From: Dyella lutea
GTDB taxonomy: Bacteria; Pseudomonadota; Gammaproteobacteria; Xanthomonadales; Rhodanobacteraceae
DNA length: 64,000 nt
Direction of reading: 5' to 3'
NCBI RefSeq assembly: GCF_024158035.1
Contig: NZ_JAMZEK010000003.1
Coordinates: 434,001 to 498,000, forward strand
The position numbers and the translations under genes were made by a program. Numbering within the stretch: position 1 is the first letter of the stretch; the number at the start of each line of letters is the position of its first letter. Shown here in pieces: positions 50,693-52,356 of the stretch. The notes under the pieces were generated by a model, which saw only the letters and a list, made by a program, of their open reading frames with translations, was not told the origin of the DNA and did no database searches.

Positions 50693-50707
50693 GCAATCGC
50701 CGTGCCA
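50693..50707 (-). promoter_or_regulatory. Sigma-54 promoter of the eCIS operon
   Basis: On the minus strand TGGCACGGCGATTGC is a full match to the -24/-12 consensus TGGCAC-N5-TTGC. Expected transcription start is near 50681, leaving a leader of about 15 bases before the ATG of the first eCIS gene. The enhancer-binding protein is encoded just upstream. Confidence 0.9.
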
Positions 50708-50770
50708 CTGGCTCGTGAGGAGGAAAATGGCGCCCCGCATGGATGCCGGGCGACAAGGCGCCCGGAAACC

Positions 50771-50786
50771 GGGTCAGGCATGACCC
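50771..50786. promoter_or_regulatory. Proposed enhancer (UAS) of the eCIS activator, site A
   Basis: GGGTCAGGCATGACCC, the centre of a longer perfect repeat CCGGGTCA-GGCA-TGACCCGG. It lies 64 bp upstream of the -24 element, about -98 from the expected start, the usual distance for enhancer-binding proteins. The same pattern and spacing recur at 52263-52278. Confidence 0.7.
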
Positions 50787-50802
50787 GGGGCTCCCTGCGG
50801 GC

Positions 50803-50818
50803 GGGTCAACGTGTACCC
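50803..50818. promoter_or_regulatory. Possible second UAS, site A2
   Basis: GGGTCAACGTGTACCC, an imperfect copy of site A placed 32 bp (three helical turns) further from the promoter. Paired UAS copies in phase are common for sigma-54 activators. Confidence 0.45.
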
Positions 50819-50939
50819 ATGTGCGATGGCGGAGGGACGTCCGGCTCGATGGGCGAAGCCAGGACGCCCCGTACACAGCCCTTCGGGCCTTCGGACGGTT
50901 GTCGCGCGCGGGGATCCGCCGGAGCGGGTCGACCGGGGG

Positions 50940-51926
50940 CTAGCGGAAGGCGTTCGTCTCGATGCCGTGCTTCTTCAGCAACTTGCCGAGCTGGCGCCGC
51001 TCGGTCCCGGAGAGGCGAGCGGCGGCGCTGATGTTGCCGGCGGCTCTCGTCATCAGGCCGAGCAGGTACGAGCGCTCGAAGGCGCTGACGGCATTCTGCT
51101 TGGCGCAGACATAAGGCAGGTTGGCGTCGTTCAATGCCACCGATGCGGCGGCAGAGGTTGGCGCAACCGACGCTGGCGTGACGAGCGCCTCCAGGACCGA
51201 CGCGCCGATCACGGCACCTTCCGCGCCCAGGTAGGCCCGCAACACCGCGTTCTCCAGCTCGCGCACGTTGCCCGGCCATGCGTGTGCCTCGAGCAGCTTC
51301 AGCGCCTCGTCGGTCCACGCCTTGGCCTGCCCGCCCATCCGCTCGGCGACCCGCCCGAGGAAGTATTCAGCCAGCAGGGGGATGTCGCTCTTGCGCTCGC
51401 GCAGGGGCGGCATGCGCACATACAGCGCGTTGAGCCGGTATTGCAGGTCGCGGCGGAAGTGACCGGCGACCACCTGCGCCTCGAGGCTGGCATTGGTGGC
51501 GGCAACGATGCGCGCGCTTGAGACCCGCGCCGCGCCGCCACCGACAGGCCGGTATTCGTTGTTCTCGAGAAAGCGCAGCAGGGTCACCTGAGCCTTGCTG
51601 GAGAGCGAATCCACCTCGTCCAGGAACAACGTGCCGCCGCGGGCACGGTCGATGAGTCCCGGTTGGGCGTGCCTGGCGTCGGTGTAAGCGCCTCGTTCGT
51701 GCCCGAACAGTTCGTTCTCGATCAGGTTGTCCGGCAGGGCTCCGCAATTCACCGGCACGAACGGCCGCTCGCGACGCGAGCTGGCGTAATGGATTTCCCT
51801 GGCGGCGAGCTCTTTGCCGGTGCCCGTCTCGCCCTCGATCAGCACCTGCACGTCGCATCCGGCATAGCGATGCAGCAGCGCACGCGTCTGCTCGAAAGCT
51901 GCGGATTGGCCGAGCATGGCCGGCAT
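50940..51926 (-). CDS. Sigma-54 enhancer-binding activator of the eCIS operon
   Basis: 328 residues. AAA+ domain with Walker A GETGTGKE (32-39), Walker B LFLDEVD (100-106) and RERKSDIPLLAEYF; the C-terminus is a FIS-type helix-turn-helix (NISAAARLSGTERRQLGKLL). No N-terminal receiver or sensor domain remains, so activity is probably set by amount or by a partner. The sigma-54 contact loop, normally GAFTGA, reads GAYTDA (79-84). Start at 51926, where AGAAGG precedes the ATG; an upstream ATG at 52088 would add 54 poorly protein-like residues. Position next to two sigma-54 promoters makes it their likely regulator. Confidence 0.88.
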   Translation of the reverse strand: MPAMLGQSAAFEQTRALLHRYAGCDVQVLIEGETGTGKELAAREIHYASSRRERPFVPVNCGALPDNLIENELFGHERGAYTDARHAQPGLIDRARGGTLFLDEVDSLSSKAQVTLLRFLENNEYRPVGGGAARVSSARIVAATNASLEAQVVAGHFRRDLQYRLNALYVRMPPLRERKSDIPLLAEYFLGRVAERMGGQAKAWTDEALKLLEAHAWPGNVRELENAVLRAYLGAEGAVIGASVLEALVTPASVAPTSAAASVALNDANLPYVCAKQNAVSAFERSYLLGLMTRAAGNISAAARLSGTERRQLGKLLKKHGIETNAFR

Positions 51927-52262
51927 CGCCCCTTCTCCCTGAGAGCCTGTCGAGCCGCTGATGCTTCGCGCCGGTCCCTTGCCAGAAAGCTGGGCCCCAC
52001 GGCACTCGAGCACCTTGGCGGTGACTTTCGATCGGTTGCCTGCAGTTTCCCCTTCAGCCTTGCCAAATAGACACAAAAACAGGATCAAATCAACTAACTA
52101 GGCACCCAATGACAGAGCCGGGCCGGCATGCGCAGAGCGGCAAAACGGCGACGTTTTGGCGTGCGTTGAAAATAGACCGGAAAACCGGCGGTGAACCCCG
52201 GAATGCGCTGGGCCGCGGCGCCCCGGGGTGAGGTAAGGCGGACCCGGCTGCCCGGTCCGGGT

Positions 52263-52278
52263 GGGTCACGGCAGACCC
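52263..52278. promoter_or_regulatory. Proposed enhancer (UAS), site B
   Basis: GGGTCACGGCAGACCC, the centre of a perfect repeat GGGTGGGTC-N6-GACCCACCC. Shares GGGTC-N6-GACCC with site A and lies exactly 64 bp upstream of the -24 box of the promoter at 52342. A further GACCC half-site lies at 52241-52245, 33 bp upstream, mirroring site A2. Confidence 0.65.
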
Positions 52279-52341
52279 ACCCCTGAGCCGTATCGCCTCC
52301 CGGCCGCCGCGGCGCGGCGCCCCTGCCGTGAGGCCTGAACG

Positions 52342-52356
52342 TGGCACGAAGCTTGC
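52342..52356 (+). promoter_or_regulatory. Second sigma-54 promoter, facing away from the eCIS operon
   Basis: TGGCACGAAGCTTGC on the plus strand is a complete -24/-12 match. Expected start is near 52368. It points into a stretch without a recognisable gene. Confidence 0.8.

Follow-up and report, generated by a model that had tools for sequence, protein, structure and literature searches.

According to a 2023 review, it remains unclear how eCIS clusters without known regulatory genes are regulated (PMC10598620). The regulators known or proposed so far, RfaH, GerE/LuxR-type and BTAD proteins, are encoded beside eCIS loci, and RfaH, GerE and BTAD proteins are likewise those in the model of the large eCIS survey of Geller 2021, in the relevant portion of which no sigma-54 activator is named (PMC8213781). 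A search of open-access papers found none that links sigma-54 to eCIS. In the window, that is, the whole 64-kb stretch of Dyella lutea DNA that was analyzed, a gene for a sigma-54 activator (bEBP) lies between two oppositely facing sigma-54 promoter elements, P1 and P2, the first of which precedes the eCIS genes. The sequence makes it likely that this activator binds tandem dyads upstream of P1 and from there drives the eCIS operon, with P2 as a weaker target. While sigma-54 enhancer control is itself known, its application to eCIS would be new, and the reading of P1 in these terms is very probably correct.

Promoter and enhancer elements

The elements around the activator gene are the following.
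50693..50707, minus strand: P1, sigma-54 -24/-12 element TGGCACGGCGATTGC, predicted +1 at about 50681; a comparable element with a dyad is found at 35 of the 39 ortholog loci described below
50771..50786: P1 proximal enhancer dyad, GGGTC-N6-GACCC, centre at about -97.5
50803..50818: P1 distal enhancer dyad, one mismatch, centre at about -129.5
52342..52356, plus strand: P2, second -24/-12 element TGGCACGAAGCTTGC, pointing away from the activator, predicted +1 at about 52368
52263..52278: P2 proximal enhancer dyad, part of an extended palindrome GGTGGGTC-N6-GACCCACC
52230..52245: P2 distal half-site, three mismatches, 33 bp out

The first-pass annotation had reported two complete TGGCAC-N5-TTGC elements, a GGGTC-N6-GACCC repeat 64 bp upstream of each -24 box and weaker copies 32-33 bp further out, and had considered the common spacing unlikely to arise by chance. 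Both promoter elements are present where it placed them and are the only two perfect matches in the window, which likewise contains exactly two perfect dyads. At P1 as well as at P2, 63 bases separate the dyad from the -24 box, corresponding to the offset of 64, and the outer copies are found with one mismatch 32 bp out at P1 and with three mismatches 33 bp out at P2. The proximal dyads are centred at -97.5 at both promoters and the distal ones at -129.5 to -130.5. The observed arrangement, with both promoters, both dyads and equal spacing, is real.

Neither kind of element tells much when taken singly; it is their pairing that matters. Perfect dyads number 11 in the 4,398,720 bases of the genome versus 30 for the reversed control, hence the dyad alone is not enriched; perfect -24/-12 matches number 16 versus 8 for the reversed control, which makes a promoter match by itself weak. 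For dyad/promoter pairs with a gap of 48-78 bp, 0.0012 were expected and 2 were found, in line with the annotation's judgment of chance. With scoring matrices built from 34 sites, all in other genomes, P1 scores 40.9 and P2 22.4, and the best score among 12 random 64-kb sequences is 14.3.

The activator protein

The gene between the two promoters encodes a protein of simple domain composition.
50940..51926, minus strand: sigma-54 activator (bEBP), 328 aa, consisting solely of an AAA+ domain and a Fis-type HTH, loop GAYTDA

The Sigma54_activat AAA+ domain has Walker A and B present (3.1e-59) and spans residues 5-169, i.e., it starts at the N-terminus with no regulatory or sensory domain ahead of it; many relatives begin with MPxMLGQS. 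The C-terminal Fis-type HTH is recognized as HTH_8 at 25.1 bits (cut-off 22). Elsewhere in the genome there is one Sigma54_DBD (rpoN) match, at 234 bits, and at least five further bEBPs are encoded. At a cut-off of E<=1.5e-110, with the next match at 6e-96, orthologs of the activator occur in 39 of the 233 genomes of the family, and these together with eight more distant proteins make up the 47 aligned activators.

The sigma-54 contact loop GAYTDA is a variant of GAFTGA at two positions. Aspartate replaces the second glycine in all 47 aligned activators, and tyrosine is present in addition in 15 of them. At this fifth loop position the nearer loci L020-L041 have G in 20 of 21 cases and D in one, and loci L051-L130 have G in 59 and D in 11 of 76. 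Two distant eCIS loci are without the aspartate, with GAFTHA in L053 and GAFTGA in L057, and the loop D is therefore a feature of the lineage and not general to such loci. In NorR, G266D results in full and F264Y in partial escape from repression, and GAYTDA has just these two changes, the first of which leaves NorR active; as described in the NorR source, those changes are laboratory mutants (PMC2941729), whereas here they are the natural state of the lineage, although not of L053 and L057. Given the lack of a sensory domain and the NorR-like loop changes, the activator is probably active whenever it is made.

An AAA+ domain plus HTH without a regulatory domain is likewise found in PspF and HrpR/HrpS, where a partner in trans or expression provides the control; in the source's examples PspF is governed by PspA and HrpS by HrpV (PMC7057263). 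The window's activator differs from these in its targets, in having GAYTDA in place of GAFTGA, and in scoring far below cut-off against the PspF models of NCBIfam (242.6 versus 443.55 bits for TIGR02974, and 206.1 versus 529 for NF008622). No PspA- or HrpV-like partner of the activator was identified, the 89-aa protein described below being a candidate only.

As for the expression of the activator itself, a simple scan found no sigma-70 consensus promoter for it, and no sigma-54 site driving it is present between the activator and P2 at up to two mismatches. Simple autoactivation via the P2 enhancer was considered and rejected, there being no matching promoter between the activator and P2.

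The eCIS operon and its first gene

Behind P1 the features of interest are as follows.
50398..50667, minus strand: gene of a conserved 89-aa protein, first behind P1, start codon 14 nt after the predicted +1
48760..50364, minus strand: eCIS sheath (Phage_sheath_1, Phage_sheath_1C), with the start as in its translation
24850..50667, minus strand: putative P1 operon, with T4-type baseplate, Pvc16, papain-like protease, two eCIS_core proteins, M15 peptidase, gp25, baseplate J and DUF6519

On the minus strand the activator is followed by P1, the 89-aa gene, the sheath gene and a long run of eCIS-hallmark genes, and the locus contains a contractile sheath, baseplate J, gp25, Pvc16 and an eCIS core domain. 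The leader of 14 nt between the predicted start and the ATG of the 89-aa gene contains GGAGGTGA. Judging from gene order, the operon would extend over 26 kb and be co-transcribed from P1.

The 89-aa gene adjoins 44 of the 46 activators searched, including those without eCIS matches. Its product has no family match in Pfam or NCBIfam, and a profile search against solved structures gave weak partial matches, the best of them to the Fur family with E 0.014, which makes a winged-helix fold a guess. The motif HPxAADTLxGIVxWWLP of this protein (window 50398-50667) marks these loci. In a phylum-wide sample the gene is present in 4 of 398 genomes, the window's genome and G016 counted. The protein is proposed as a candidate co-regulator.

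The second promoter and the island edge

P2 has an intact promoter and proximal dyad, the latter within the extended palindrome, and a weak outer copy. A same-genus genome that lacks the activator (G002) aligns to window positions 11234-16363 and then again from 52650 on, which places P2 within the eCIS island, at about 300 bp from its right edge. The intervening positions 16364-52649, the eCIS region, replace about 4.7 kb of G002, either as an island here or by a replacement there. Two features are located behind P2.
52409..52540, plus strand: open frame following an AGGAGG stretch, without a usual start codon
52720..53712, plus strand: aldo/keto reductase gene, located outside the island and the first intact gene downstream of P2, at a distance of 352 nt from the predicted +1

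The two opposed promoters flanking the activator, as the annotation described them, are present here, but none of the remaining 38 ortholog loci showed a divergent P2 in the stretches that were read, some of which are short and one of which (L044) has a run of N at this place. This absence, together with the lack of an intact gene directly behind P2 and the nearness of the island edge, makes the outward-facing promoter pair so far peculiar to this genome.

The chances appear about even that P2 is a decayed remnant, namely a former second enhancer-promoter that lost its gene at the island edge and is now functionless. Such an origin would fit with its being seen in this genome only among the ortholog loci scanned, with the end of the island at about 52650, and with the state of the open frame, which besides lacking a usual start codon has just one match, weak and partial, among 232 other genomes (E 0.04) and a third-position GC of 0.75 in its own frame versus 0.83-0.87 for four genes here. 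The intact promoter and proximal dyad, however, and a score above those of all 12 random sequences speak against decay. The same score makes a second transcript, which the annotation had expected to be switched on together with the eCIS genes, plausible, although no intact gene directly behind P2 is there to receive it. P2 may drive the aldo/keto reductase gene, a small RNA, or nothing. As a candidate for the second, a single small-RNA match was rejected, as it is far below the gathering score and overlaps the P2 enhancer rather than the transcript.

Recurrence in the family

The 233 genomes of the family were searched with a pattern consisting of the dyad, a gap of 48-78 bp and a -24/-12 element, with the reversed pattern as control. 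The strict pattern yielded 25 sites in 21 genomes, and the reversed control none in 233. Although gaps of 48-78 were allowed, the gap is 61-64 at 24 of the 25 strict sites and 51 at the other. All 21 pattern genomes fall among the 39 with an activator ortholog (Fisher p 1.6e-19), and the activator or the sheath lies within the fetched 3-kb locus at 24 of the 25 sites, the exception being a site on another contig of G187. A search of related genomes for the dyad before -24/-12 sites had been suggested in the first-pass annotation, and its outcome strongly supports the eCIS half of the proposal.

With relaxed matching, dyad and promoter are found at 35 of the 39 ortholog loci, the window's included, the site of L205 being weak with two mismatches. 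These relaxed sites were selected using the dyad, so that their mismatch counts lean towards it, while the outer copy played no part in the selection. The 42 aligned sites comprise 41 at ortholog loci and the remote G187 site. In 36 of them the proximal dyad has a gap of 61-65, in 37 an outer copy with at most three mismatches is located 32-34 bp further out, and in three more the best-scoring dyad is itself the outer member of such a pair. The recurring outer copy indicates that the enhancer consists of two dyads in tandem, with centres near -97 and -130. A similar tandem layout is found in the enhancer of NtrC at glnA, where two dyads with a spacing of about 32 bp lie about 100-140 bp upstream, although dyad sequence and activator differ here. 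In two loci the proximal dyad lies at 39-40 bp and in one at 51, i.e., about two turns and one turn closer, respectively; gaps of 56, 58 and 59 correspond to no whole number of helical turns.

At 33 of the 39 ortholog loci eCIS genes adjoin the activator, as found with the window's own proteins as queries, by which diverged ones may be missed. The recurring order is activator, enhancer, eCIS. In five genomes a second enhancer-promoter of the same direction precedes genes inserted between activator and eCIS (L042 in G020, L192 in G184, L204 in G198, L211 in G182 and L210 in G188). The inserted gene of G198 encodes a calpain-like (Peptidase_C2) protease, which may be a cargo under the same control.

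The spacers from enhancer to promoter were examined for IHF sites at 37 sites and one exact consensus match was found, in L216, a locus that joined the set only after its match had been noticed; an IHF site is therefore not general. The match in the L216 spacer is AATCAACAAATTG, in that one genome.

Recognition helix and operator

The recognition helix GTERRQLGKLL is present in 31 of the 47 aligned activators, and most of the rest have variants of it that are changed at one to a few residues. Five paralogs (L048, L049 and L219-L221) have the helix GQDRSAFSKLV instead, and in these the small (89-aa-type) gene abuts the activator, no -24/-12 element lies between the two, no dyad-promoter match is present, and no eCIS match was found within about 10 kb with the window's proteins as queries.

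Outside the family, the small gene or eCIS genes are matched in 5 of 80 loci, three of which have matches to eCIS structural genes; the operators of this small sample were read by eye. L052 (Rhodocyclaceae), with the helix GKERRALGKLLKKHGIEK, carries GGGTCATTTTTGACCC as well as GGGTTCTCCATGACCC, of which GGGTTCTCCATGACCC is situated 64 bp before a weak -24/-12 element (GGGCATGCCTATTGC, two mismatches). L053 (Rhizobacter) and L057 (Verrucomicrobia MAG) both have KNRRA-type helices, and they have in common another repeat, starting GGACAAATT, which occurs twice before a -24/-12 element. L054 and L060 show no clear operator. The comparison points to operator and recognition helix changing together.

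Proposed mechanism

In general, bEBPs bind an enhancer, assemble, and by looping open the sigma-54 promoter, with enhancers 100-150 bp upstream of it according to the source (PMC7057263). Along these lines, the bEBP encoded at 50940-51926 would bind the tandem dyads, which precede the start point by about 97 and 130 bp, form its AAA+ ring, loop to the sigma-54 RNA polymerase waiting at P1 and open the promoter, by which the 89-aa gene and then the eCIS structural and cargo genes would be switched on. Control would rest on the synthesis of the activator or on a partner in trans. P2, firing outward across the island edge, would be another target of this activator, and a weaker one. P1 is regarded as an activator-driven eCIS promoter on account of recurrence, co-occurrence, spacing and helix/operator co-variation, all of which, like the anatomy of the locus, are directly visible in the DNA, and from which binding and activation are inferred. 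Of the annotation's central claim, that the activator switches on the eCIS operon and a second transcript together, the P1/eCIS half is strongly supported by sequence and the P2 half is plausible.

It is improbable that the dyads are instead bound by some other regulator, such as a repressor, and that another bEBP serves the sigma-54 promoters. Palindromes are bound by many regulators and another bEBP could come from the at least five more in the genome, but the presence of the motif tracks this bEBP among genomes as well as its recognition helix, the motif also occurs in G016, where the bEBP is not linked to the eCIS-type locus that carries it, and a tandem pair near -97 and -130 fits the range of 100-150 bp given for bEBP enhancers in the source (PMC7057263). 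The P1 dyad is an inverted repeat, rich in GC, that follows the stop codon of the activator gene at about 150 bp, which might suggest a terminator hairpin of that gene with an incidental spacing. This reading can be rejected with near certainty, because the terminator scan did not report the P1 dyad, the dyad at P2 does not follow a gene, and five genomes have a second copy that stands with the same gap before another transcript.

Control of the eCIS operon by the bEBP would have relatives among other contractile machines. One is the sigma-54/bEBP control of type VI secretion clusters, with which the name VasH is associated. Such control is reportedly the subject of Bernard 2011 (cited in PMC6653060). 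Sfa2 is an activator of a T6SS cluster that works with RpoN and coordinates the core genes with separate effector-linked promoters (Allsopp 2021, PMC8855297). The likeness lies in an activator encoded within the cluster of a contractile machine, whereas the machine here is an eCIS and not a T6SS. The ChIP site of Sfa2 is 2,132 bp from the RpoN site and the source, in the part concerned, gives no operator of this dyad kind (PMC8855297), while the tandem dyads here are mostly 61-65 bp from the -24 box.

A more far-reaching reading is conceivable but rather doubtful, namely that the locus represents an undescribed class of eCIS control in which a sensor-less bEBP is locked in a signal-independent state in this lineage (GAFTDA/GAYTDA), a dedicated tandem operator co-evolves with its recognition helix across distant bacteria, the 89-aa protein is a governor in trans, and cargo is recruited. 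As parts of this tentative reading, eCIS production would be set by activator supply and feedback and not by SOS or two-component signals, and cargo-like genes, e.g., those of calpain-type proteases, would join the regulon by gaining operator and promoter. The loops of L053 and L057, which are without the D, make this reading slightly less likely.

The activator and its enhancer form a small cis/trans module whose operator is defined sharply enough for testing, and they offer a concrete idea of how this group of phage-tail-like syringes turns on. If the proposal is true, members of the eCIS regulon, cargo included, could be found by DNA pattern, and the pairs of helix and operator would be useful for studies of bEBP specificity.

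Divergent loci and sites away from the activator

The arrangement is missing beside the activator at 4 of the 39 ortholog loci, in G001, G016 (unlinked), G250 and G253, the last of which has a dyad with two mismatches at gap 63 that was not counted in the 35. In G001 there is no dyad-plus-promoter at the activator, no small gene and no sheath match, and eCIS genes lie near the contig start. In G016 the activator is on contig 12, with no eCIS matches beside it; contig 19 carries a homolog of the 89-aa gene with a partial sheath match 5 kb away, and upstream of this homolog GGGTGTCTTTCGACCC is located 61 bp before TGGCAAGAAGGTTGC.

On contig 2 of G187 a lone tandem enhancer with a -24/-12 element (L202 9609-9702) is present while the activator is on a different contig. 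This strict site precedes an apparently unrelated gene, that of a lipoprotein-like protein of about 840 aa with two CxxCH motifs, and may belong to the regulon as a remote member.

Of the 369 genomes in a class-wide sample, 2 contain the strict pattern, namely G872 and the genome of the window itself, and the reversed control was likewise found in 2 of 369, so there is no enrichment by count outside the family. In G872, which belongs to another family, the site has a gap of 64 and is directly before a homolog of the 89-aa gene (42% identity), near the contig end, with neither activator nor eCIS match in the 10.5 kb read. The search by DNA pattern alone thus reached a site before the module's marker gene, though the out-of-family count equals that of the control.

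The stretches read for 6 of the 39 activators contain no eCIS genes (G016, G126, G186, G206, G219 and G250), the contig of G206 and some others being short. In the phylum-wide sample of 398 genomes, L234 and L235 (G257 and G462) pair a distant activator (46-49% identity) with the small gene, and eCIS matches are absent from the 19.5 kb read. Together, the six activators and these two pairs indicate that the module is not strictly bound to eCIS. L194 and L196 (G186 and G219) have no eCIS match in the stretch read and have kept the activator, the enhancer-promoter and the small gene. In L194 the small gene is preceded by the genes of a 444-aa protein and a calpain-like protease and followed by that of a dihydrouridine synthase.
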